Shown one piece after another: positions 6,820-18,852 of a stretch of 64,000 nucleotides of DNA (position 1 is its first letter; every line of letters begins with the position of its first letter). Origin of the DNA: Burkholderia sp. Bp8992. Its GTDB lineage: Bacteria; Pseudomonadota; Gammaproteobacteria; Burkholderiales; Burkholderiaceae. The position numbers and the translations under genes were made by a program. The notes beneath the pieces are model-generated. The model saw nothing but the letters and a program-made list of their open reading frames with translations. It was not told the origin of the DNA and made no database searches. Location of the stretch: positions 62,001 through 126,000 of the forward strand of contig NZ_QTQI01000007.1 in NCBI RefSeq assembly GCF_003853705.1, read 5' to 3'.

Positions 6820-7728
6820 TCACGGCCCCGCATCGACGCGTGACGCCTGTTCCGCGTCGAGCCCCAGCAACGCCACCGCGTTGTCCTTCAGGATCAGCGG
6901 ATGCACGTCGGGCCGGAAGCCGGCGCCCTGGAAATCCTCCAGCCAGCGATCCGGCCGGATCAGCGGAAAATCCGATGCGAACAGGACCTTGTGCCGCAGC
7001 AGCGTGTTCGCATGCTTGACCAGCTCCGGCGAGAAATACTTCGGCGACCATCCCGACAGATCGATGTAGACGTTCGGCTTGTGCAGCGCGATCGACAGCG
7101 CCTGCTCCTGCCACGGCCACGATGGATGCGCGATCACGATCTTCATGTCGGGGAAATCCGCGGCGACGTCGTCGAGGTGAATCGGTTCGGAATACTTGAG
7201 ACGTAATCCGCCGCCGCCGCGCATGCCCGATCCCATGCCTGAATGGCCGCTGTGAAACACGGCCGGCAACCCGTATTCGGCGATGACTTCATAGATCGGA
7301 TAGGCGATCGGGTCGTTCGGATAGCACCCTTGCATCGTCGGGTGGAACTTGAAGCCCTTCACGCCGTGTTCTTCGATCAGGCGACGCGCCTCGCGCGCGC
7401 CGAAGCGGCCCTTGTGCGGATCGATGCTCGCGAACGCGATCATGATGTCGCGGTTCTCCTGCGCAAACCCGGCGATCTCCTCGTTCGGAATGCGGCGCCG
7501 GCCGATGTTCGTCTCGCAATCGACGGTGAACATCACGAAGCCGATGCGGCGCTCGCGGTAATACGCGATCGTTTCCGGAATCGTCGGCCGGCGGCCTTGC
7601 TTCAGCACCGTGCCGAAGTACTTGTCGGCCGCATCGTCGAATGCCTTTGCGAACAGGTCGGGCGGCTGGCAGCACGACACTTCGGCGTGCACGTGCGTGT
7701 CGATTGCAATCAGGTTCCGGATGTCCAA
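6820..7728 (-). CDS. Amidohydrolase_2 family hydrolase of the ferulate cluster
   Basis: This 302-residue TIM-barrel metal hydrolase belongs to the amidohydrolase_2 (ACMSD-like) family. It has the N-terminal metal motif DTHVHAE, then VKFKFHPTMQG-type lysine and histidine residues (seen as GVKGFKFHPTMQG), HSGHSG, IAHPSWPW and ASDFPL near the C-terminus. It is transcribed away from the feruloyl-CoA hydratase/lyase gene and shares its control region, including a MarR-type operator. Related proteins sit in hydroxycinnamate gene sets and have been proposed as beta-ketoacyl-CoA hydrolases of a non-retroaldol route or as ring-cleavage hydratases. The actual reaction cannot be read from sequence. Confidence 0.75.
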   Translation of the reverse strand: MDIRNLIAIDTHVHAEVSCCQPPDLFAKAFDDAADKYFGTVLKQGRRPTIPETIAYYRERRIGFVMFTVDCETNIGRRRIPNEEIAGFAQENRDIMIAFASIDPHKGRFGAREARRLIEEHGVKGFKFHPTMQGCYPNDPIAYPIYEVIAEYGLPAVFHSGHSGMGSGMRGGGGLRLKYSEPIHLDDVAADFPDMKIVIAHPSWPWQEQALSIALHKPNVYIDLSGWSPKYFSPELVKHANTLLRHKVLFASDFPLIRPDRWLEDFQGAGFRPDVHPLILKDNAVALLGLDAEQASRVDAGP

Positions 7729-7830
7729 GCGTGTCTCCTCATGTCGTGAGCCGTCGCCGCGGCGACGTGTTTTCCAGGCGTTTGCGCCCGATTAGGGGTT
7801 TCTCCCGAGCCGTTTCCATTCTACTTTACA

Positions 7831-7847
7831 TATCAGGCTACCTGATA
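7831..7847. promoter_or_regulatory. MarR-type operator in the amidohydrolase/ech divergent promoter
   Basis: TATCAGG-CTA-CCTGATA is a perfect 7-bp palindrome around a 3-base spacer. The same TCAGG-N3-CCTGA core occurs at three other control points of this cluster (near 15448, 16248 and 16341). It lies between the divergent amidohydrolase and hydratase/lyase genes. Confidence 0.7.
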
Positions 7848-7897
7848 GTAAATTGGCGGCGAGTCGCGTAGGGCGGCACTGTCATTGGAGAACGAAG

Positions 7898-8725
7898 ATG
7901 AGTTACGAAGGTCGCTGGAACACCGTGAAAGTCGCGGTCGAGGGCGGGATCGCATGGGTGACGCTGAACCGTCCGGAGAAGCGCAACGCGATGAGCCCGA
8001 CGCTGAATTCGGAGATGATCGACGTGCTGGAAACGATCGAGCTCGATCCGGAAGCGCAGGTGCTCGTGCTGTCCGGCGAAGGCGACGCGTGGACGGCGGG
8101 GATGGACCTGAAGGAGTACTTCCGGGAAATCGACGCGGGCCCGGAAATCCTGCAGGAAAAGATCCGCCGCGACGCGAGCCGCTGGCAGTGGCAATTGCTG
8201 CGCATGTACGCGAAGCCGACCATCGCGATGGTCAACGGCTGGTGCTTCGGCGGCGGCTTCTCGCCGCTCGTCGCGTGCGATCTCGCGATCGCGGCCGACG
8301 AAGCCGTGTTCGGCCTGTCGGAGATCAACTGGGGCATCCCGCCGGGCAACCTCGTCAGCAAGGCGATGGCGGACACGGTCGGCCATCGCCAGGCGCTGTA
8401 CTACATCATGACCGGCGATACTTTCACCGGGCAGCAGGCCGCGCAGATGGGGCTCGTCAACAAGAGCGTGCCGCGCGCGCAACTGCGCGACGAAGTGCTC
8501 GCGCTGGCCGCGAAGCTGCTCGACAAGAACCCGGTCGTGATCCGCAATGCGAAGCATGGCTTCAAGCGTTGCCGCGAGCTGACGTGGGAGCAGAACGAGG
8601 ACTACCTGTACGCGAAGCTCGACCAGGCGAACCATCGCGATCCGGAAGGCGGCCGTGAGCAGGGGCTCAAGCAGTTCCTCGACGACAAGAGCATCAAGCC
8701 GGGCCTGCAGGCGTACAAGCGCTGA
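7898..8725 (+). CDS. ech: Feruloyl-CoA (p-hydroxycinnamoyl-CoA) hydratase/lyase
   Basis: This 275-residue enoyl-CoA hydratase/isomerase-family protein matches the usual length of HCHL. It hydrates feruloyl-CoA and cleaves the product to vanillin and acetyl-CoA. The crotonase features are present: TAGMDLKEY, the oxyanion-hole loop WCFGGGFSP (Ser122), and GLSEINWGIPPG with Glu142, equivalent to the catalytic Glu143 of Pseudomonas HCHL. A tyrosine pair near 237-239 (EDYLYAK) is also retained. The frame opens at 7853, but the ATG after TTGGAG and the MSYEGRW N-terminus fit the family. It heads an ech-vdh-fcs operon. Confidence 0.9.
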   Translation: MSYEGRWNTVKVAVEGGIAWVTLNRPEKRNAMSPTLNSEMIDVLETIELDPEAQVLVLSGEGDAWTAGMDLKEYFREIDAGPEILQEKIRRDASRWQWQLLRMYAKPTIAMVNGWCFGGGFSPLVACDLAIAADEAVFGLSEINWGIPPGNLVSKAMADTVGHRQALYYIMTGDTFTGQQAAQMGLVNKSVPRAQLRDEVLALAAKLLDKNPVVIRNAKHGFKRCRELTWEQNEDYLYAKLDQANHRDPEGGREQGLKQFLDDKSIKPGLQAYKR

Positions 8726-8767
8726 CGCGCGAAGCGGCACGCAAACGGACTGAGGGGAGACAGCGAA

Positions 8768-10219
8768 ATGCATGAAGTGAGTTTGTTGATCGATGGCGTG
8801 TCGCGCGGCGCGTCGGACGGCGCCACGTTCGACCGGATCGATCCGGCGACGGGGCAGGTGGCCTCGCGCGCCGCGGCGGCGACGCTCGCCGATGCGGATG
8901 CCGCCGTCGCGGCGGCGGCGCGCGCGTTCCCGGCGTGGGCCGCGCTCGGGCCGACCGAGCGTCGCCGGCGGCTGCTGGCGGCGGCCGACCGGATGGACGC
9001 ACGCGCCGGCGAATTCATCGAGACCGGCCGGGCCGAAACCGGCGCGATGGCGAACTGGTACGGCTTCAACGTCATGCTCGCGGCGAACATGCTGCGCGAG
9101 GCCGCCGCGATGACGACGCAGATCGACGGCGCGGTGATTCCGTCCGACGTGCCCGGCAGCATCGCGATGGCCGTGCGCCAGCCGTGCGGCGTCGTGCTCG
9201 GGATCGCACCGTGGAACGCGCCGGTGATCCTCGCGACCCGCGCGCTCGCGATGCCGCTCGCCTGCGGCAACACGGTCGTGCTGAAGGCGTCGGAAGGCTG
9301 CCCCGGCGTGCACCGGCTGATCGGCAGCGTGCTGCACGAAGCGGGGCTCGGCGACGGCGTCGTCAACGTGATCACGCACGCGCCGCAGGACGCGCCCGCG
9401 ATCGTCGAGCGGTTGATCGCGAACCCGGCCGTGCGGCGCGTGAACTTCACCGGATCGACGCGCGTCGGCCGGATCGTCGCGACGCTCGCCGCGCAGCATC
9501 TGAAACCGGCGCTGCTCGAACTCGGCGGCAAGGCGCCGGTGCTCGTGCTCGACGACGCGGATCTCGATGCCGCGGTCGACGCGGTTGCATTCGGCGCATT
9601 CTTCAACCAGGGGCAGATCTGCATGTCGACCGAGCGCGTGATCGTCGACCGCAAGGTCGCGGACGCGTTCGTCGACAAGCTCGTCGCGAAAGCGCGTACG
9701 CTGAAGGCCGGCAACCCGGCCGCGCCGGGTGTCGTGCTCGGCACGCTCGAAAGCGCGGCGGCCGCGCAGCGCATCGCCGCGCTGGTCGCCGATGCGCGCA
9801 CGCACGGTGCGGCGTTGCCGCTCGGCTGCGAAGTCGACGGCGCGGTGATGCAGCCGACGATCGTCGACGACGTGACGCGCGACATGAAGCTCTACGCAGA
9901 CGAATCGTTCGGGCCGGTCGTGACCGTGCAGCGCGTCGACGGCGACGACGCAGCGCTCGCCGCCGCGAACGACAGCGAATACGGATTGTCGGCGGCGGTG
10001 TTCAGCCGCGACATCGCGCGCGCGATGCAGGTCGCGAAACGGATCGAGTCGGGCATCTGCCACGTCAACGGCCCGACCGTGCACGACGAGGCGCAGATGC
10101 CGTTCGGCGGCGTGAAGGCGAGCGGTTACGGCCGGTTCGGCAGCAAGGCGTCGATTGCCGAATTCACCGACCTGCGCTGGATCACCGTGCAGACCGGGCC
10201 CCGCCACTACCCGATCTGA
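8768..10219 (+). CDS. vdh: Vanillin dehydrogenase (aldehyde dehydrogenase family)
   Basis: This 483-residue NAD(P)-dependent aldehyde dehydrogenase has the family motifs NFTGSTRVGR, LELGGKAP (general base Glu251) and FFNQGQICMSTER (nucleophile Cys285). Next to the hydratase/lyase, its role would be to oxidise vanillin, and probably 4-hydroxybenzaldehyde, to the acid. It lies 42 bases downstream of ech with a GGGGAGA ribosome binding site, and upstream of the feruloyl-CoA synthase gene. Confidence 0.9.
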   Translation: MHEVSLLIDGVSRGASDGATFDRIDPATGQVASRAAAATLADADAAVAAAARAFPAWAALGPTERRRRLLAAADRMDARAGEFIETGRAETGAMANWYGFNVMLAANMLREAAAMTTQIDGAVIPSDVPGSIAMAVRQPCGVVLGIAPWNAPVILATRALAMPLACGNTVVLKASEGCPGVHRLIGSVLHEAGLGDGVVNVITHAPQDAPAIVERLIANPAVRRVNFTGSTRVGRIVATLAAQHLKPALLELGGKAPVLVLDDADLDAAVDAVAFGAFFNQGQICMSTERVIVDRKVADAFVDKLVAKARTLKAGNPAAPGVVLGTLESAAAAQRIAALVADARTHGAALPLGCEVDGAVMQPTIVDDVTRDMKLYADESFGPVVTVQRVDGDDAALAAANDSEYGLSAAVFSRDIARAMQVAKRIESGICHVNGPTVHDEAQMPFGGVKASGYGRFGSKASIAEFTDLRWITVQTGPRHYPI

Positions 10220-10316
10220 GCGGGCCGCCGCCTCGCGGCAAACACGACGACAACGACACAACGCAGTGTCCGCCGGCGCGGCCCAACGCGCCGGCGGAAC
10301 CGACTGGAGACAAACC

Positions 10317-12218
10317 TTGGATGCGGATCCGACTCCCCTGCGCGGCACGGCCGCCGTGCAGCCCGACCTCGCCGGTTACCGTCCCGTCGCGATCGGCGCG
10401 GCGCCGCCCGAGATCGCGCAGCGCGACGGCTGCTGGACCCTGCGCGCCTCGACCGCGCTCGGCGCGTATCCGCGCCGCCTGACCGACCGGCTCGTCAGCG
10501 GCGCGCAAGCGCACCCGGACCGCTGGCTCGTCGCGCAACGCGGCGCCGACGGCGCATGGGTCGGCATCAGCTATGCGCAAATGCTCGAACGGGCGCGTGC
10601 GATCGGCCAGGCGCTGCTCGATCGCGGGTTGTCGGCCGAGCGTCCGGTCGCGATCCTGTCCGGCAACGATCTCGAACATCTGCAGATCGCATTCGGCGCG
10701 ATGTGGGCCGGCATTCCGTACGCACCGCTGTCGCCCGCGTATTCGCTCGTCTCGAGCGATTACGGCAAGCTCCGCCATGCGCTGGCGCTGCTGACGCCGG
10801 GCCTGGTGTTTGCCGCCGACGGCGACGCGTTTCGCGCGGCGCTCGATGCGACGGTGCCGGACGACGTCGAGCGCGTGGTCGTGTCGGCGCCGGACGGGAT
10901 GCGCGGCGTCACGCGCTTCGCGGCGCTGCTCGACACGGCGCCGCACGGCGTGGACGCGGCGCACGACGCGATCACCGGCGACACGATCGCGAAATTCCTG
11001 TTCACGTCCGGATCGACGCGCATGCCGAAGGCCGTGCCGACCACCCACCGGATGCTGTGCAGCAACCAGCAGATGCTGCTCGAAACGTTTCCGCAATTCG
11101 GCATCGAGCCGCCGGTGCTCGTCGACTGGCTGCCGTGGAACCATACGTTCGGCGGCAGCCACAACGTCGGCATCGCGCTGTACAACGGCGGCACGCTATA
11201 CGTCGACGACGGCAGGCCGGTGGCGGGCAAGTTCGACGAGACGCTGCGCAACCTGCGCGAGATCGCGCCGACGGTGTATTTCAACGTGCCGAAAGGCTGG
11301 GAGGAACTGGCCGCCGCGCTCGAAACCGATGCCGCGCTGCGCGCGACCTTCTTCTCGCGCGTGAAGATGTATTTCTTCGCGGGCGCGGGGCTGTCGCAGG
11401 CCGCCTGGGACCGGCTCGAACGCGTGACGCTCGCGCACTGCGGCGAGCGCATCCGGATCATGGCGGGTCTCGGGATGACCGAAGCCGCGCCTTCCTGCAT
11501 GTTCACCACGGGGCCGATGTCGGGCGCCGGCTACATCGGGCTGCCCGCGCCCGGCTGCGATGCGAAGCTGGTGCCGGTCGACGGCAAGCTCGAAGCGCGT
11601 TTTCGCGGGCCGAACGTGATGGCCGGCTACTGGCGCGCGAGCGGCGACGACGCGCGGGAAGTCTTCGATGACGAAGGCTACTACCGCAGCGGCGACGCGG
11701 TGCGTTTCGTCGACGCGCAGCGCCCGGAGATCGGGCTGATGTTCGACGGCCGCATCGCCGAGGATTTCAAGCTGTCGTCGGGCACCTTCGTGAGCGTGGG
11801 GCCGATGCGCGCGCGGATCGTGTCGAACGGCGCGCCGTATGTGCAGGACGCGGTCGTGACCGGGATGAACCGGGACGACGTCGGCGTGATGATCTTCCCG
11901 CGTGTGGACGAGTGCCGCCGTCTCGCCGGCGCGGGGCCGGACGCCGACGTGCGTACCGTGCTGCAGGCGCCGCGCGTACGGGCGTTCTTTGCCGACCTGC
12001 TGGCGCGGCTGAACCGCGAGGCAACCGGCAGCGCGACGTTCATCGCGCGGCTGTGCCTGCTCGACACGCCGCCTTCGCTCGATCTCGGCGAGGTGACCGA
12101 CAAGGGTTCGATCAACCAGCGCGCGGTGCTCGCGCAGCGCGCGGCGCTCGTCGACGCGATGCATGCGGCCGACGCCGCCGACGTGGGCGTGCTCGTCGCC
12201 GGCCCGCGCGGCGCGTGA
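10317..12218 (+). CDS. fcs: Feruloyl-CoA synthase (acyl-adenylate-forming ligase)
   Basis: This AMP-binding ligase of about 633 residues activates ferulate to feruloyl-CoA with ATP. The phosphate-binding loop FTSGSTRMPKAVPTTHRM is near residue 230, the adenylation motif MAGLGMTEAAPS near 380, and the C-terminal catalytic-lysine region reads EVTDKGSINQRAVL. The start chosen is TTG: it lies 6 bases after GGAGA and begins LDADPTPLRG, while no ATG in this frame fits; a nearby ATG at 10320 is in another frame. It completes the ferulate to vanillate steps with vdh and ech. It is long compared with typical acyl-CoA ligases, as known for Fcs. Confidence 0.87.
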   Translation: MDADPTPLRGTAAVQPDLAGYRPVAIGAAPPEIAQRDGCWTLRASTALGAYPRRLTDRLVSGAQAHPDRWLVAQRGADGAWVGISYAQMLERARAIGQALLDRGLSAERPVAILSGNDLEHLQIAFGAMWAGIPYAPLSPAYSLVSSDYGKLRHALALLTPGLVFAADGDAFRAALDATVPDDVERVVVSAPDGMRGVTRFAALLDTAPHGVDAAHDAITGDTIAKFLFTSGSTRMPKAVPTTHRMLCSNQQMLLETFPQFGIEPPVLVDWLPWNHTFGGSHNVGIALYNGGTLYVDDGRPVAGKFDETLRNLREIAPTVYFNVPKGWEELAAALETDAALRATFFSRVKMYFFAGAGLSQAAWDRLERVTLAHCGERIRIMAGLGMTEAAPSCMFTTGPMSGAGYIGLPAPGCDAKLVPVDGKLEARFRGPNVMAGYWRASGDDAREVFDDEGYYRSGDAVRFVDAQRPEIGLMFDGRIAEDFKLSSGTFVSVGPMRARIVSNGAPYVQDAVVTGMNRDDVGVMIFPRVDECRRLAGAGPDADVRTVLQAPRVRAFFADLLARLNREATGSATFIARLCLLDTPPSLDLGEVTDKGSINQRAVLAQRAALVDAMHAADAADVGVLVAGPRGA

Positions 12219-12270
12219 CGCGCGCGAGATGAGCGGCCGGGCAGCCAGTATCGCGCGTTGAAGCGCGACA

Positions 12271-12295
12271 GGCCGTTCGTCATCGGCGAACGGCC
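12271..12295. terminator. Possible stem-loop between fcs and vanB
   Basis: GGCCGTTCG and CGAACGGCC form a 9-bp perfect stem with a 7-base loop in the gap between the convergent fcs and vanB genes. No T-run follows, so it is a weak terminator candidate. Confidence 0.35.
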
Positions 12296-12475
12296 CGGCG
12301 CGCTGGCGTTGCGGCGAACGAATTTGCCAGGCAGACGGCGCGTCTCACGCGTTGCACGTGCCCCGAAGGCGGTCCCGTCTAGGACGCCTGTCGACGCACG
12401 TTCGCAAGCTCGTCATCGACGTGAACGGGCACCGGGCCGCGTGCTTCGCGACCGGGCGCCGCTTCACGGACACCT

Positions 12476-13438
12476 TCACAGATCCAGCACCAGCATCGGC
12501 GTCACCGCACGCGAACAGCACGGCAGCATCTGGTCGTTGGCCGCGCGTTCGTCGTCGGTCAGGTAGACGTCGCGATGATCGGGCGTGCCGGACAGCACGC
12601 GCGTGAGACACGTGCCGCACACACCCTGTTCGCACGACACCGGCACGTCGATGCCGCAGCCGCGCAGCGCTTCGACGATCGATGTGCCGGCGGGCACGTC
12701 GACCACGCGTCCCGATTGCGCGAGCGATACCTGGAAAGCTGCGTCGCCGCCGCCGGAAGGCGCGGCATCCGCATCCGGGCCGACCGGGCCGAAGTGCTCC
12801 CGATGCAGGTTCGCCGCGTCCCAGCCCGCGTCGGCCGCCGCCGCCAGCGCGGCGCCGATGAAGCCGCCGGGGCCGCACACGTACAGATGCGTGCGGGGCG
12901 CGGGGTTCGCGAGCAGCTGCGCGAAATCGATGCGCCGGCCGGCCGGCGCGTCGTCGAACCAGAGCCGCGTGCGGGCCTTCAGCCCCGGCGTGTCGAGCCG
13001 GTCGAGAAAGGCGGCGCGCGCCGGCTCGCGCGCGCAGTAATGCAGTTCGAACGACTGTCCGGTCTCGATCAGGTGCGCGGCCATGCTGAGCAACGGCGTG
13101 ATGCCGATGCCGCCGGCCAGCAGCACGCTGTGCGCGGCATCGGGGGCGAGCGGGAAATGATTGCGCGGGGCGCTGACGTCGAGCGTCGCGCCGGGCTCGC
13201 ACGCGTGCATGGCGCGCGAACCGCCGCGCGACGCGGGCGCGTGCAGCACGCCGATCCGGTAGACGCCTGCTTCGGACGGGCTGTTGCACAGCGAGTACTG
13301 GCGGACGAAGCCGCCGACGTGAACGTCGATATGCGCGCCGGCCGTGAACGGCGGCAGCGCGGCGCCGTCGGCGGACGCCAGTTCGAACACGCAGATGTCG
13401 GTCGCGGCGGGAAGCTTGCGGGTGACTGTGACTTTCAT
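12476..13438 (-). CDS. vanB: Vanillate O-demethylase reductase subunit
   Basis: This 320-residue phthalate-dioxygenase-reductase-like protein has an N-terminal flavin-binding barrel (TAGAHIDVHV, QYSLCNSPSE), a nucleotide-binding domain (LLAGGIGITPLLSMA) and a C-terminal plant-type [2Fe-2S] domain with VSCEQGVCGTC plus a distal Cys in MLPCCSRA. It passes electrons from NAD(P)H to the VanA oxygenase. The frame can start at a GTG at 13465, but MKVTVTRKLP at 13438 resembles family N-termini. It follows vanA after 55 bases. Confidence 0.9.
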   Translation of the reverse strand: MKVTVTRKLPAATDICVFELASADGAALPPFTAGAHIDVHVGGFVRQYSLCNSPSEAGVYRIGVLHAPASRGGSRAMHACEPGATLDVSAPRNHFPLAPDAAHSVLLAGGIGITPLLSMAAHLIETGQSFELHYCAREPARAAFLDRLDTPGLKARTRLWFDDAPAGRRIDFAQLLANPAPRTHLYVCGPGGFIGAALAAAADAGWDAANLHREHFGPVGPDADAAPSGGGDAAFQVSLAQSGRVVDVPAGTSIVEALRGCGIDVPVSCEQGVCGTCLTRVLSGTPDHRDVYLTDDERAANDQMLPCCSRAVTPMLVLDL

Positions 13439-13493
13439 GGGAAGAAGGGAGTGAGCGACTCGCACCGCCGCGGCGCGACGGTGCGAGTCGCGG

Positions 13494-14537
13494 TCAGCAC
13501 GACAGCGCGGCGGCGCGCTCCTGGTCGATCAGCCGGTCGAGCACGCGCCGCGACTGCACGCCGCCCGCGTCGATGTTGAGCTTGAGGAGCGGCCGGTCGG
13601 GCCAGGTCAGCAGGTTGCGCTGCTGCGCTTCGAGCATGTCGAGATCCTCGGCGAAGATCGCGCCCTGTCCGTTGCGGATCGTCTCCGTCAGCGAGCGATC
13701 GTCGACCGCGAAGCTGCGCGCCATGCCCCAGAAGTACCAGATCGACGTTTCCGTCTCCGGCGTGATGAAGTCGACGACGATGCTCGACACCTTGTCGCGC
13801 GGGTCCGCGTCGTAACCGCCCTTGCCCGCATGCGCGACGCCGACCTCGATCATCACGTGGCTCGGCGGCGTGAAGTGGCAGATCTGCCAGCGGTCGCAGC
13901 GCACGTCGTCGGCCAGGCCGTTGCCGCGCAGTGCGGCCGCCCAGAACGGCGGCGGAACGATGCCTTCCATGAACCGGCTGGTCGTGACCGTGTCGCCGTT
14001 CACTTTCGTCGCGGGCGGCGCTTCCTCGATCTCCGGCTGCCCGATGCTCGACGCATGCACGTAGGTTTCATGCGTGAGGTCCATCAGGTTGTCGATCATC
14101 AGCCGGTAGTCGCAGCCGATGTGATACAGGCCGCCGCCGTAGGCCCAGCCCGGATCGTCGGCCCAGTCGAGGCGGTGGATCGCGGCCGGATCGGCCCGCT
14201 CGGGATCGCCGGGCCACACCCATACGAAGCCGTACCGCTCGACGGCCGGATAGGTGCGGATCGCGGGAATGCCGCCGACGCGCTGGCACGGCATGCTCGT
14301 GCACTTGCCGTTCGACGCCATCGTCAGCCCGTGATAGCCGCACACGAGCCGGCCGTCCCGGACGGTGCCGAGCGACAGTGGCGCACCGCGGTGCGGGCAG
14401 AAATCCTCGAGCGCGGCGACCGCGCCGTCCGCGTCGCGAAAGAACACCATCCGCTCGCCGCAGATCTGCCGGCCGAGCGGCTTGCCCGCGAATTCGTCGG
14501 GCGTGCACGCGACATACCACGCGTTTTTCAGGAACAT
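13494..14537 (-). CDS. vanA: Vanillate O-demethylase oxygenase subunit
   Basis: This 347-residue Rieske non-haem iron oxygenase converts vanillate to protocatechuate and formaldehyde. The Rieske centre is FCPHRGAP...VCGYHG (CxH and CxxH, about residues 47-69), and the mononuclear iron site is DNLMDLTHETYVH. The start MFLKNAWYVACTPDE is typical of VanA and has GGAGGAGA directly upstream, so the longer in-frame start at 14603 is not needed. It sits between vanR and vanB, all on the same strand. Confidence 0.92.
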   Translation of the reverse strand: MFLKNAWYVACTPDEFAGKPLGRQICGERMVFFRDADGAVAALEDFCPHRGAPLSLGTVRDGRLVCGYHGLTMASNGKCTSMPCQRVGGIPAIRTYPAVERYGFVWVWPGDPERADPAAIHRLDWADDPGWAYGGGLYHIGCDYRLMIDNLMDLTHETYVHASSIGQPEIEEAPPATKVNGDTVTTSRFMEGIVPPPFWAAALRGNGLADDVRCDRWQICHFTPPSHVMIEVGVAHAGKGGYDADPRDKVSSIVVDFITPETETSIWYFWGMARSFAVDDRSLTETIRNGQGAIFAEDLDMLEAQQRNLLTWPDRPLLKLNIDAGGVQSRRVLDRLIDQERAAALSC

Positions 14538-14630
14538 GCGTCTCCTCCATGGCGTGCGCGCACGCCAGGCGTCTCGTTGAATGAACGGTGCCTCATGCTT
14601 CATGCACCGTGCGAAGAGGCCGCGCGCCGG

Positions 14631-15398
14631 TCAGCCGGCGTCGCGGCGAATCAGGTTGCCGCCCTTGAGCCTCGTCATCGCGCGCTGGTTGTCGAGTACG
14701 CGCCGCAGGTTGCCGTGCGCGATCTGCGCGTGCTCCCGCATCAGCGCTTCCGCGCGCGCACCCTGGCGGCATTCGATCGCGTCGAGCACGGCGCGATGCT
14801 GGGCCTGCGCGACGATCAGCGTGTCCCGCGCGCGCGGATCGAGCGATTGCACGACGACGAATGCGCTGGCGGACGCGAACGGCAGCGTAGCGACCTTGTC
14901 GATCTGCCGCGCGACCACGTCGCTGCCGGCCGCGGCCGCGAGCAGCCGATGGAAACGGGCATTTGCGTCGACGTAGCGGGAGAACGTGTCGTCGGTCAGC
15001 GGGCCGGCGAGCAGCACGTCGATTTCGTCGGCGCACGCATGCAGGTCGCGCAGGATCGACGGCGGCACGCCGCGCTCGGCCGCGAATCGCGCGGCGAGCC
15101 CTTCTAGCGTGCCGCGCAGCTCGATCGCGTCGCCGATCTCGCGCGCCGAGAACGCACGCACCGCAAACCCGCCGGTTGCGATCGGCTCGATCAGCCCTTC
15201 CTCCTGCAGCCGGATCAGTGCCGCGCGCACCGGTGTGCGCGACACGCCGAGCCGCTCGACGACCCACAGTTCGGAAATGCGCGCGCCGGGCGCGAGTTCG
15301 CCGCCGACGATGAGCTCGCGCAGGCCGAGCAGCGTACGGACGGTTTGCGACGGGGAAGCGGTGCGAAGGTCGGAAGGCGAGGTGTCGAGGTCGGTCAT
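14631..15398 (-). CDS. vanR: GntR-family (FCD) regulator of vanillate genes
   Basis: This 255-residue FadR-subfamily GntR regulator has an N-terminal winged helix (ISELWVVERLGVSRTPVRAALIRLQEEGL) and a C-terminal FCD ligand domain with the metal-site histidines (RFHRLLAAA and EHAQIAHG). It is first in a vanR-vanA-vanB arrangement. In Acinetobacter, Caulobacter and Corynebacterium, VanR represses vanAB and is released by vanillate. Two TGTATACA palindromes in its upstream region match the known VanR operator type, so autoregulation is likely. Confidence 0.87.
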   Translation of the reverse strand: MTDLDTSPSDLRTASPSQTVRTLLGLRELIVGGELAPGARISELWVVERLGVSRTPVRAALIRLQEEGLIEPIATGGFAVRAFSAREIGDAIELRGTLEGLAARFAAERGVPPSILRDLHACADEIDVLLAGPLTDDTFSRYVDANARFHRLLAAAAGSDVVARQIDKVATLPFASASAFVVVQSLDPRARDTLIVAQAQHRAVLDAIECRQGARAEALMREHAQIAHGNLRRVLDNQRAMTRLKGGNLIRRDAG

Positions 15399-15447
15399 GG
15401 CGAGTAGCGCAGCGGTGCCGCAAAGTCTGCGTCGATGTGCGGTGTTG

Positions 15448-15460
15448 TCAGGTTGCCTGA
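15448..15460. promoter_or_regulatory. MarR-type operator in the vanR/marR divergent promoter
   Basis: TCAGG-TTG-CCTGA matches the operator core found before ech and before the transporter gene. It is 50 bases upstream of the vanR start codon. This suggests that the MarR protein also influences the van genes, its own gene, or both. Confidence 0.6.
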
Positions 15461-15464
15461 GAAA

Positions 15465-15475
15465 ATTGTATACAT
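15465..15475. promoter_or_regulatory. VanR operator, site 1
   Basis: ATTGTATACAT contains the 8-base palindrome TGTATACA and resembles the ATTGTATACAAT operators known for VanR. It lies 4 bases from the MarR-type site and about 67 bases upstream of vanR. Confidence 0.6.
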
Positions 15476-15550
15476 CGATGCTGCACGATCAAGCGAAATC
15501 GTGCGAATCCTCGGGTAAACGACGATCGAAACAGCCGGAAACCGGGTGTC

Positions 15551-15560
15551 ATGTATACAG
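15551..15560. promoter_or_regulatory. VanR operator, site 2
   Basis: ATGTATACAG repeats the TGTATACA palindrome, with its centre 85 bases from the centre of site 1 (about eight helical turns). It lies about 64 bases upstream of the marR start. Two sites spaced this way could allow looping; that is inference. Confidence 0.5.
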
Positions 15561-15623
15561 TGCGCCGGCCGCCGCGATCGGGCCCTCGCGCGCCTGTCCG
15601 CCGCGCGGGCCGCGTGAGGTAAG

Positions 15624-16148
15624 ATGGCCCGCGATATTCCTCCCGACACGTTCATGAGTTCGACTCCCGTCAAACCGGCCGGCGCGAAACGCGCTGCCCG
15701 CGCCACCGAAGCCAAATCGCCGATGCGTGCGCAGCAACGGCTGACTTACCTGATCGGCAATCTCGATCGGTTGCTGCGCCGCCAGATGAGCGATGCGCTC
15801 GCGCCGCTTGGCGTGACGCTCGCGCAATACACGGCGCTGTCGGTGCTGGAGGCGCGCGGCGCGCTGTCCAACGCGCAGCTCGCGGTGCGCTCGTTCATCA
15901 CGCCGCAATCCGCGAACGAGGTGATGGTGGCGATGGCCGCCCGCGGCTTCGTCACGCGCGAGGCCGATCCGAACCACGGCCGCGTGATCCTGCTGCGCCT
16001 GACCGACGAAGGCTCGGCGATCCTGCGCGACTGCGAACGGGTGCTGCGCCCGCTCGAGCGCCGGATGCTCGGCGACGACGTGACCACCGACGAAGTCGCA
16101 CAGGTTCAGCACACGCTCGAACTGTTCGTGCGCAACCTGCGCGACTGA
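15624..16148 (+). CDS. MarR-family regulator of hydroxycinnamate catabolism
   Basis: This 174-residue winged-helix protein has the MarR core LAQYTALSVLEARGALSNAQLAVRSFITPQSANEVMVAMAARGFVTRE and the wing DPNHGRVILLRLTDEG. It is divergent from vanR and lies 290 bases upstream of the transporter gene. Homologues such as CouR, FerC and HcaR repress hydroxycinnamate genes and respond to the CoA thioesters, so feruloyl-CoA is the probable inducer. The palindrome TCAGG-N3-CCTGA repeated in the cluster is its likely operator. This ATG has GAGG 5 to 9 bases upstream; an in-frame ATG at 15654 has none. Confidence 0.82.
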   Translation: MARDIPPDTFMSSTPVKPAGAKRAARATEAKSPMRAQQRLTYLIGNLDRLLRRQMSDALAPLGVTLAQYTALSVLEARGALSNAQLAVRSFITPQSANEVMVAMAARGFVTREADPNHGRVILLRLTDEGSAILRDCERVLRPLERRMLGDDVTTDEVAQVQHTLELFVRNLRD

Positions 16149-16247
16149 GCGTCCGTCCCTTTCGGCACATTGCGCGTTCCGCGCGGCCGTGTCAGGTGCG
16201 GTTTCCGCGCGCCTTGCGGGTTAACACCGGCGCTCCGCACACTTGAA

Positions 16248-16266
16248 ATATCAGGTTACCTGTTAT
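16248..16266. promoter_or_regulatory. MarR-type operator, distal site before the transporter gene
   Basis: ATATCAGG-TTA-CCTGTTAT keeps the left arm perfectly and has one mismatch in the right arm. It lies 93 bases from the next site, both upstream of the MFS-porin-esterase genes. Confidence 0.65.
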
Positions 16267-16340
16267 TAAATCGTCCCGTCCCGTGAAGGGATGACGATCC
16301 GCACGGCCCGTTGCCGAGCGGATTTTATTTCGGACACTGA

Positions 16341-16357
16341 ATCAGGTTGCCTGATAT
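16341..16357. promoter_or_regulatory. MarR-type operator, proximal site before the transporter gene
   Basis: ATCAGG-TTG-CCTGAT is a perfect 6-bp palindrome around a 3-base spacer, followed by an AT-rich stretch (ATTTTGTGG). It is 83 bases upstream of the chosen start of the transporter. Confidence 0.68.
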
Positions 16358-16439
16358 TTTGTGGTACGTGATCCGATCATGAAAAATGACCCCGCGCATG
16401 CATTCGGGCATGTCGCGCAAGTCAAGGCTTGGAGACGAA

Positions 16440-17645
16440 ATGGATACTACCGTTGCCGCAAGGCCGGCCGTCGCGACGACGCTCGGTCTGTGTTTCGCGA
16501 TCGCGCTGCTGGAGGGGCTCGACCTGCAGTCGGTGGGCGTGGCCGCGCCGCGCATGGCGCATGAATTCGGGTTGACGGTGTCCCAGATGGGGCTCGCGTT
16601 CAGCGCAGGCACGTTCGGCCTGCTGCCGGGCGCGATGCTCGGCGGCTGGCTCGCCGACCGCGTTGGCCGCAAACGGGTGCTGATCGCGTCGGTCTGCCTG
16701 TTCGGACTGCTGTCGATCGCGACCGCGCAGGTGTCGACCTTCGCGATGCTGGTCGTGGTGCGCGCGCTGACCGGACTCGGGCTCGGCGGCGCGATGCCCA
16801 ACCTGATCGCGCTGTCTTCCGAAGCCGTCGACGCACGCTCGCGCAGCAGCGCGGTGGCCGTGATGTATTGCGGCATTCCGTTCGGCGGCATGATCGCGTC
16901 GCTGATCGGCGTGCTGCTGGCCGGCGACACCGAATGGCGGCACATCTTCTACGTCGGCGGCGTCGGGCCGCTGCTGCTCGCTCCGCTGTTGCTCGTCCTG
17001 CTGCCGGAATCGCGCGCATTCCTCGACGTCAGCGCGTCGGGCGCCGCGCGTCCGGGCGTCGCGCACACGCTGTTCGGCGGCGCGCGCACGGGCACCACGC
17101 TCGCGCTGTGGCTCAGCTATTTCTGCACGCTGATCGTGCTGTATTTCCTGCTGAACTGGCTGCCGTCGCTGATGGCGGCGAAGGGGCTCGCGCGCAGCCA
17201 GGCCGGGATCGTGCAGATCTTCTTCAACATCGGCAGCGGCCTCGGCGTGCTCGGCATCGGCATGTCGATGGACCGGATGAAGCCGTCGCGGGTCGTCGTC
17301 GGGATGTATGCGGGGATCGTGCTGTCGCTTGCCGCGCTGGCGGTCGCGCCGGGGCTGGCCTGGCTGTCCGTCGCGGCATTCGCGGCAGGGATGTTCGTCG
17401 TCGGCGGCCAGTCGGTGCTGTATGCGCTTGCCGCGATGTATTACCCGACCGCGATGCGCGGCACCGGCGTCGGCTCCGCGGTCGCCGTCGGCCGGCTCGG
17501 CTCCGTCGTCGGGCCGCTCGCGGCCGCGACGCTGCTGGCCGCCGGGCGCAGTGCGCCGATGGTGATCGGCGCGAGCATTCCCGTCACGCTGGTCGCCGCC
17601 GTCGCCGCGCTGGTGCTGATCCGGCGGCCGCAGGCACACGACTGA
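16440..17645 (+). CDS. MFS aromatic-acid importer (AAHS family)
   Basis: This 401-residue major facilitator has about twelve membrane segments. It contains the AAHS hallmark LLEGLDLQSVGVAAP in the first helix, GGWLADRVGRKRVL between helices 2 and 3, and a central cytoplasmic loop around residue 205. PcaK, VanK and HcaT relatives take up aromatic acids by proton symport; ferulate or a related hydroxycinnamate is the probable substrate here. The chosen ATG is 4 bases after GGAGA; the longer frame from 16386 has no good binding site. It starts a transporter-porin-esterase run controlled by two MarR-type sites. Confidence 0.85.
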   Translation: MDTTVAARPAVATTLGLCFAIALLEGLDLQSVGVAAPRMAHEFGLTVSQMGLAFSAGTFGLLPGAMLGGWLADRVGRKRVLIASVCLFGLLSIATAQVSTFAMLVVVRALTGLGLGGAMPNLIALSSEAVDARSRSSAVAVMYCGIPFGGMIASLIGVLLAGDTEWRHIFYVGGVGPLLLAPLLLVLLPESRAFLDVSASGAARPGVAHTLFGGARTGTTLALWLSYFCTLIVLYFLLNWLPSLMAAKGLARSQAGIVQIFFNIGSGLGVLGIGMSMDRMKPSRVVVGMYAGIVLSLAALAVAPGLAWLSVAAFAAGMFVVGGQSVLYALAAMYYPTAMRGTGVGSAVAVGRLGSVVGPLAAATLLAAGRSAPMVIGASIPVTLVAAVAALVLIRRPQAHD

Positions 17646-17712: not shown

Positions 17713-18852
17713 ATGAAGCACACCAAAGCCTTGCTGGCAGCCGGCGCATGCGCGCTGGCCGCGACCGGCGCGCATGCGCAATCGAGCGTGACGCTGTACG
17801 GGATCATCGACACGGGCGTCGAGTTCGTGTCGCACGCGAACGCGGCCGGCGACCACGTCGTGCGCATGCCGGCCGTGACGGGCGAACTGCCGTCGCGCTG
17901 GGGGCTGCGCGGCAGCGAGGATCTCGGCGGCGGCTATCAGGCGGTATTCACGCTGGAAAGCGGCTTCAACGTGCGCGGCGGCGATCTCGGCCAGGGCGGC
18001 CGGCTGTTCGGCCGGCAGGCATTCGTCGGGCTGAAGGGCGGTTTCGGCACGCTCGCGTTCGGCCGCCAGTACACGATGACCTACCTCGCGCTGCAGGGCG
18101 CGGACATCATCGGCCCCGACATCTACGGGCTCGGCTCGTTCGATGCGTACGTGCCGAACGGCCGCGCCGACAACGCGGTGACCTACCTCGGCACCTATCG
18201 CGGCGTGACGCTCGGCGCCGCGTATTCGTTCGGCCGCGACGGCGCGGGCACCGGCAACTCGCCGGGGCAGGGCACGTGCGCGGGGCAGGTGCCCGGCGAC
18301 GCGGTCCAATGCCGCAACTGGTCGGTGATGCTCAAGTACGACAGCGCGAACTTCGGCGCGGCTGCGTCGTATGAAGAGCAGCGCGGCGGCACGGGCGCGG
18401 CTGCGAACTTCTTCGACGGCGTCGCGCCGGTCGCGTTCACGAGCCACGCCGGCAAGGATGCGCGCGTGCACGTGAGCGCGTATGCGCAGGCGGCCGGCGC
18501 GAAGATCGGCGCGGGCTGGATCGGTCGGCGCGTGTCGACCGGGTCGCCGGCCGCGCCCGGCGCGCATTCCGACCTGTTCTTCGTCGGCGCGTCGTATGCG
18601 GTGAAGCCCGATTTCGTCGTCGACGGCGAAGGCTACCGGATCGTCAATACCGCGCACGACACGCGCGCGACGATGGCGACGCTGCGCGCGACCTATCTGC
18701 TGAGCAAGCGCACGGCCGTCTATGCGCAATCGTCGTATCTGTGGAACAGCGCGCATGCACGCTACGCGGTCAGCGGCGGCGGGCCCGGCACGACGCCCGG
18801 CGAAGGGATGGGGCAGCTCGGCGCGATGGTCGGCGTGCGGCACATGTTCTGA
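17713..18852 (+). CDS. Outer-membrane porin (Gram-negative porin_4 family)
   Basis: This 379-residue protein has a signal peptide cut after GAHAQ, then the beta-proteobacterial porin start SSVTLYGIIDTGVEF, internal GSEDLGGGYQAVFTLESGF and RQAFVGLKGGFGTLAFGRQ, and a terminal GVRHMF ending in the aromatic residue needed for outer-membrane insertion. It lies 67 bases after the importer and 33 before the esterase, so it probably gives passage to hydroxycinnamates or their esters. Specificity is inferred only from context. Confidence 0.88.
   Translation: MKHTKALLAAGACALAATGAHAQSSVTLYGIIDTGVEFVSHANAAGDHVVRMPAVTGELPSRWGLRGSEDLGGGYQAVFTLESGFNVRGGDLGQGGRLFGRQAFVGLKGGFGTLAFGRQYTMTYLALQGADIIGPDIYGLGSFDAYVPNGRADNAVTYLGTYRGVTLGAAYSFGRDGAGTGNSPGQGTCAGQVPGDAVQCRNWSVMLKYDSANFGAAASYEEQRGGTGAAANFFDGVAPVAFTSHAGKDARVHVSAYAQAAGAKIGAGWIGRRVSTGSPAAPGAHSDLFFVGASYAVKPDFVVDGEGYRIVNTAHDTRATMATLRATYLLSKRTAVYAQSSYLWNSAHARYAVSGGGPGTTPGEGMGQLGAMVGVRHMF

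Follow-up and report, generated by a model that had tools for sequence, protein, structure and literature searches.

The ferulate module and its palindromes

The subject of this analysis is a short palindrome, TCAGG-N3-CCTGA, that recurs in a ferulate catabolic module of Burkholderia sp. Bp8992. The module lies in a stretch of 64,000 nucleotides (contig NZ_QTQI01000007.1, positions 62,001 to 126,000 of the forward strand), referred to here in its full length as the window, whose numbering is used throughout. It is very probable, from comparison with related genomes, that the fuller 19-bp form of the motif, ATATCAGG-N3-CCTGATAT, is the operator of an HcaR-type MarR repressor encoded at 15624, which would block the ech-vdh-fcs and MFS-porin-esterase promoters until an inducer comes. 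From left to right, the gene order is amidohydrolase (minus strand), ech-vdh-fcs (plus), vanRAB (minus), marR (plus), and MFS-porin-esterase (plus). Operons were assigned from gene order and several gene names from context. The genes are the following:

6820..7728, minus strand: Amidohydro_2 protein (PF04909), divergent from ech and sharing with it the region of operator 1
7898..8725, plus strand: ech, p-hydroxycinnamoyl-coenzyme A (CoA) hydratase/lyase (NF006588, 504.6 bits, cut-off 276; PDB 2j5i, 3.2e-158)
8768..10219, plus strand: aldehyde dehydrogenase, probable vanillin dehydrogenase, vdh (PF00171; name from context)
10155..12218, plus strand: acyl-CoA synthetase, probable feruloyl-CoA synthetase, fcs (PF00501; NF009232, 698.4 bits, under the cut-off of 777; name from context); these are the limits of the listed open reading frame (ORF), and the real start is probably further inside
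12476..13465, minus strand: vanB-like reductase (Fer2 and reductase domains; name from context)
13494..14603, minus strand: vanA-like Rieske oxygenase, vanillate demethylase (PF19112 VanA_C, PF00355)
14631..15398, minus strand: GntR/FCD regulator, probable VanR, first gene of vanRAB (PF00392, PF07729; name from context)
15624..16148, plus strand: marR, HcaR-type MarR regulator (PF12802/PF01047; best PDB match HcaR, 3.8e-29)
16386..17645, plus strand: MFS transporter, MhpT-like (NF008586, 618.5 bits, cut-off 410; likely start 16440)
17713..18852, plus strand: probable porin (ORF; named from its sequence and from a porin in the matching cluster in excerpts of PMC9701309)
18862..20610, plus strand: tannase/feruloyl esterase family protein, MHETase-like (PF07519, 439.4 bits; PDB 8ekg, 1.3e-121), with MHETase its nearest match and feruloyl esterases next

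The candidate operators, scored against the 16 defined positions of the family consensus, and the promoters predicted by a promoter scan are:

7830..7848, plus strand: operator 1, ATATCAGGCTACCTGATAG (TATCAGG-CTA-CCTGATA from 7831), 5' of ech-vdh-fcs, 15/16
15445..15463, unstranded: operator 2, TCAGG-TTG-CCTGA at 15448-15460, the poorest of the four at 12/16, at the predicted vanRAB start point
16248..16266, plus strand: operator 3, ATATCAGGTTACCTGTTAT (ATATCAGG-TTA-CCTGTTAT), 15/16, between TTGAAA and TAAATC of the MFS promoter
16339..16357, plus strand: operator 4, GAATCAGGTTGCCTGATAT (ATCAGG-TTG-CCTGAT from 16341), 14/16, auxiliary, 91 bp past operator 3, with no clear promoter boxes
7825..7854, plus strand: sigma70-like ech promoter, TTTACA-18-TAAATT, with operator 1 as its spacer
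15465..15492, minus strand: predicted vanR promoter, TTGATC-16-TACAAT

The four palindromes named in a preliminary description of this DNA are all present. Each was said there to separate a regulator from catabolic or import genes, which is wrong for the 7831 site; that one separates the divergent amidohydrolase gene from ech. With at most one mismatch allowed, TCAGG-N3-CCTGA has four matches in the window, three exact and one with a single mismatch. Dinucleotide shuffles of the window gave a mean of 0.96 matches and reached four in one of 100 shuffles. Taken alone this count is suggestive, and the case is carried by the comparative data.

The motif and its promoters in related genomes

A search for the MarR protein through 299 genomes of the same family as B. 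cepacia LK29 (G001) gave 112 positive genomes at E <= 1e-20; a class-level protein search matched one of 369 genomes, G001 itself. The 118 matches gave 115 loci of at most 20 kb, fetched by marR and independently of the motif; the three matches left out were a further one in the G251 locus and a pair interrupted by internal stops, of which one was read later as L174. Relatives of ech were accepted at a minimum of 70% identity and 150 bits, those of the MFS gene at a minimum of 50% identity. The motif was found at 14/16 or better in 105 of the 115 MarR loci, with 161 sites in all, while 200 shuffled half-sites of the same composition reached a mean of 0.145 loci and a maximum of 7. Of these 161 sites, all but one are found at most 450 bp upstream of one of three genes: 76 at ech, 52 at MFS, and 32 at marR.

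The site is most regular at ech, which is present in 103 of the fetched loci. A site of at least 13/16 stands within 350 bp upstream of the gene in 101 of them, and both misses have a visible cause: L067 ends at the locus edge, with the site just past it and visible in L185, and in L134 the alignment covers no more than a fragment of ech (residues 73-172), with a 16/16 site between this fragment and marR. Of 98 loci with the MFS gene, 75 have a separate site for it (at least 12/16, within 500 bp). The other 23 all carry the MFS gene on the same strand as ech, and so it may be read with the ech operon. From 83 distinct sites, the information content of the motif comes to about 25 bits. A further copy of ech-vdh-fcs with its own site, TTATCAGGTCGCCTGATAT, was noted in B. 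cepacia LK29 (L170).

The promoter scan reported a single promoter 5' of ech (0.1 expected), and operator 1 fills the gap between its -35 and -10 boxes, a placement expected for the operator of a repressor. The MFS promoter, read by eye, has the same layout of TTGAAA, palindrome, and TAAATC, although the scan did not report these boxes; the layout of operator 3 is identical in close relatives, and operator 4 is kept in relatives at varying spacing. The commonest flanks of the ech site are CTTGCA and CTTTACA on the left and TAAAT on the right. Among 22 representatives picked by hand, conservation was 93% in the site halves, 72% and 80% in the -35 and -10 flanks, and 57% and 49% in the outer flanks. 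Spacings between neighbouring sites upstream of MFS (25 distinct values, 27-286 bp) gave Rayleigh p values of about 0.6, 0.03, and 0.01 at periods of 10.0, 10.5, and 11.0 bp, at most a hint of helical phasing, as the test was post hoc and the genomes are related.

Two other explanations of the palindromes bear on this geometry. The repeats could be chance occurrences or RNA hairpins acting as terminators or attenuators, and operator 4 does score as terminator-like; the shuffle controls across 115 loci, the loss of the T-run after operator 4 in most relatives, and the position of operators 1 and 3 upstream of the predicted start point leave this explanation with hardly any credibility. Alternatively, the MarR protein could activate through the site, or both activate and repress, as FerR of Pseudomonas fluorescens does according to its R/A entry in excerpts of PMC10458429. 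In its favour are the position of operator 4, away from promoter boxes, and a TTTGTAC stretch that precedes the ech -35 box by about 30 bp, is moderately conserved in relatives, and is possibly a second regulatory element. Operators 1 and 3, however, occupy the space between the -35 and -10 boxes, and a dimer bound there should obstruct RNA polymerase, which makes activation unlikely and repression the preferred reading.

A genome-wide search for the motif, proposed in the preliminary description, was made in relatives of the source strain. The bare 13-mer TCAGG-N3-CCTGA proved unspecific, occurring at 2-8 sites per genome in five Burkholderia (0-3 for the reversed pattern), and was replaced by the 17-mer TATCAGG-N3-CCTGATA, which was specific and tied to genomes with the regulator. 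Exact 17-mers occur in 72 of the 299 genomes, at 1-3 per positive genome, while the reversed pattern occurs in one (G015). They were found in 71 of the 112 genomes positive for MarR and in one of the 187 negative genomes (Fisher p 5e-38, nominal as the genomes are related).

The regulator and the proposed circuit

The protein encoded at 15624 belongs to the MarR family (PF12802/PF01047 above cut-off), and its predicted model (mean predicted local distance difference test score 79.7, predicted template modelling score 0.65) matches MarR structures in a fold search. MarR-family proteins are homodimers that act on palindromes of 16-20 bp, and the palindrome found at the promoters is 19 bp long. 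In a sequence search of the PDB, a comparison with solved structures in which FerR and FerC have no part, the best match was HcaR of Acinetobacter baylyi ADP1 (104.8 bits, 3.8e-29; PDB 3k0l, 4rgr, 4rgs, 4rgu, 4rgx, 5bmz), the next being Rv2887 (58.3 bits). The fold search, ranked by E-value, likewise put HcaR at the top (1.7e-10). We take the helix of residues 94-106 in the model to be the recognition helix; P94, Q95, A97, N98, and E99 are invariant in 27 aligned sequences, and the segment TPQSANE is almost equal to KPQSANK of HcaR. By sequence, then, the regulator is of the HcaR type. HcaR controls the same pathway according to excerpts of PMC5487221 and PMC10458429; it differs in an identity of about 42% and in gene order.

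More distant systems are alike in kind. CouR of Rhodococcus jostii RHA1 is described in excerpts of PMC4737184 as a MarR repressor of hydroxycinnamate genes whose operator overlaps the -35 box and which is released by p-coumaroyl-CoA. Its operator there, ATTGA-N5-TCAAT, is different, and it is a weak match to the present protein (5cyv, 9.6e-4; 6c28, with a chain named CouR, 3.2e-6). FerC of Sphingobium SYK-6 and FerR of P. fluorescens BF13, likened here by description, are MarR-type regulators of ferulate genes whose effector is feruloyl-CoA, FerR differing in being listed as an activator too (excerpts of PMC10458429). A plasmid of A. indicus carries a cluster of ech, vdh, fcs, an MhpT-like transporter gene, an HcaR ortholog (1.3e-61 to HcaR), a GntR gene, and vanAB; in a tree this ortholog falls among Burkholderiaceae proteins on a long branch, its placement being unsure. 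In a Rhodococcus opacus locus, a related form, ATATCAG-N5-CTGATAT, has four sites of at least 12/14, all intergenic, and one of 500 permuted half-sites gives four. These sites (L176:419-460 and 7891-7933) perhaps represent a related operator in Actinomycetota, a lead from a post hoc search. A Neorhizobium locus had no site at 11/14.

The expected regulon can be set beside expression in Paraburkholderia aromaticivorans grown on ferulate versus glucose, as given in excerpts of PMC9701309. The log2 changes there are +11.7 for an MhpT-like transporter, +11.5 for a porin, +11.36 for an MHETase-like hydrolase, +9.6 for the hydratase/lyase, and +9.1 for vanillin dehydrogenase, while the value for the CoA ligase is printed as 89, probably a misprint. 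Of the seven tags from RS20005 to RS20035, these five genes and the CoA ligase account for six. On these excerpts, and at the level of expression, the match to the predicted regulon is good.

Several observations weigh against this assignment or limit its reach. Ten of the 115 loci (L079, L083, L090, L110, L124, L126, L127, L135, L149, and L164) have no 14/16 site, six of them none at 12/16 and the other four one of 12 or 13. In four of the ten (L110, L124, L126, and L127) marR is on a different contig from ech, and the sites are at that ech, three in each genome between ech and MFS, so that the site stays with its target genes when the regulator is unlinked. L135 is the second of two copies in its genome, the first (L131) having sites, and L083 is from an 11.5-kb contig of a genome (G139) without an ech match. 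The exact 17-mer is missing from 41 of the 112 MarR-positive genomes. Of 108 genomes with ech (E <= 1e-100), 107 are MarR-positive; the two genes are nearly always inherited together, and their presence alone cannot separate a site that follows ech from one that follows marR. G276 (L168), the one MarR-negative genome with an exact 17-mer, has the ferulate module and two sites, and no MarR ortholog was found in it (best match 38 bits). In another (G261, L169:9439-9457), a 15/16 site lies between genes for an NtrC-type regulator and for an aldehyde dehydrogenase and short-chain dehydrogenase, families that were read from ORFs; this site, one of the 17-mer matches listed, is not near ech. In the fold search, the TM-scores of other MarR proteins were above that of HcaR (0.70 vs 0.60). 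For Acinetobacter, the TCAGG operator was looked for in one cluster, the hca cluster of A. indicus, which has two weak sites between ech and MFS (12/16 at most), no better than chance, as 117 of 500 permuted half-sites equal them; with sites this poor, the operator may not be common to the whole HcaR family. Lastly, in the excerpted P. aromaticivorans data (PMC9701309), a nitrite reductase and a methyltransferase, both unrelated, are induced as strongly as the ferulate genes.

On balance, co-occurrence, promoter placement, the genomes with an unlinked regulator, and kinship with HcaR bear out the earlier proposal that the MarR protein at 15624 would control side-chain removal, uptake, and ester hydrolysis through this site. 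What the comparison shows is that the motif exists, that it sits in promoters, and that it goes with this regulator; from this we infer binding, repression, operon structure, and ligand. In the circuit so conceived, when inducer is lacking a MarR dimer would occupy the -35/-10 spacer of the ech-vdh-fcs promoter at operator 1 and keep it off, and a second dimer would do the same in the spacer of the MFS-porin-esterase promoter at operator 3, aided by operator 4. Ferulate or a related hydroxycinnamate would then enter the cell and be activated. The inducer is most likely a CoA thioester and possibly the free acid: the reported effectors of HcaR, CouR, and FerC are CoA thioesters, and HcaR crystals hold unesterified ligands too (excerpts of PMC5487221 and PMC10458429). 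Inducer would free the repressor and turn on uptake, ester hydrolysis, and side-chain removal together.

The circuit is of a known kind, in which a MarR/HcaR-type protein represses hydroxycinnamate catabolism. To this the sequences add an exact candidate operator for the family, the way it sits in promoters, its close association with the regulator, and an extension to vanRAB in some lineages. The operator was not found in the titles and abstract openings of the open-access literature, a search that left much of the subscription literature outside, including the HcaR-DNA paper; a search with the operator strings gave only unrelated papers among the matches listed, and a term search of the betaproteobacterial regulon paper PMC6449761 found MarR, HcaR, and ferul- unmentioned. 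A precise operator for ferulate and coumarate catabolism would hold for a large family of bacteria, lignin converters among them. It would predict the transporter, porin, and esterase genes of the regulon, offer a promoter/operator pair for hydroxycinnamate sensors, and bring the amidohydrolase under the same control, perhaps joined in some lineages by vanillate demethylation.

Operator 2 and vanillate demethylation

The vanR-marR gap, in which operator 2 lies, was aligned in eight sequences only, the window and seven relatives. Beside operator 2 it contains two further palindromes:

15467..15474, unstranded: TGTATACA box 1, probable VanR site by deduction, in all eight gaps, abutting the vanR -10 box
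15552..15559, unstranded: TGTATACA box 2, probable VanR site, in all eight gaps, 85 bp from box 1

The spacing of the boxes is 85 bp in seven gaps and 96 bp in L061. These boxes help to decide whether the TCAGG palindrome is the site of the GntR-family VanR (14631-15398) and not of the MarR protein. GntR proteins have short palindromes as binding sites, and the 15448 site is within the vanR promoter. Against this assignment, strong sites occur in 105 of the 115 MarR loci and a GntR gene in only 10, a count confined to the fetched stretch of each genome, and both TGTATACA palindromes are present in every gap, whereas the TCAGG site is missing in two of eight (L062 and L067). It is therefore very improbable that the palindrome belongs to VanR, and the MarR protein remains its preferred partner.

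The function of operator 2 is the least certain part of the circuit. The preliminary description had suggested that demethylation is perhaps controlled as well; this is its weakest limb, and would apply to some lineages only. The site is present in six of the eight gaps, at 13/16 in four, and in four of these six its right half is CTTGA. Nine relatives have a MarR protein 90-95% identical to that of the window: in five both vanRAB and the site are present, while L053, L057, L058, and L060 have no vanRAB in the fetched stretch and no 12/16 site there, so operator 2 travels with vanRAB in part of the genus. In L053, whose locus has no vanRAB, the gap upstream of marR has a decayed box, TGCGTACA, where relatives have the second TGTATACA box, with the look of a natural deletion.

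Operator 2 could also be a non-functional remnant, with VanR alone controlling vanRAB, and this is a serious alternative, only a little short of an even chance. The site is 12/16 in the window, only 11/16 in B. dolosa, and absent from two gaps, and in P. aromaticivorans on ferulate vanA rises by just 1.9 log2 units and vanB falls (expression data in excerpts of PMC9701309). This weak van response agrees with demethylation lying outside the core regulon in that lineage. Against a remnant are the retention of the site in six of eight gaps, its position where vanRAB transcription is predicted to start, next to the first TGTATACA box, and its 13/16 counterpart in B. multivorans. Judged from these sequences, operator 2 probably gives the MarR repressor, in some Burkholderia, a further check on vanRAB in addition to that by VanR. 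A more specific scenario is put forward tentatively: at the vanRAB start, beside the VanR box, some members of the Burkholderia cepacia group may have gained a second-layer site for the ferulate repressor. The demethylase would then require a hydroxycinnamate as well as a vanillate signal, an AND-type gate that would join the upper and middle pathway, and lineages lacking the site or an adjacent vanRAB would have lost it or never gained it.

At the other end of the module, a relative of the Amidohydro_2 protein (6820-7728) was found in 50 of the 115 fetched loci, in 48 of them at 81-96% identity; the sole solved relative found is BB4693, an uncharacterised protein.

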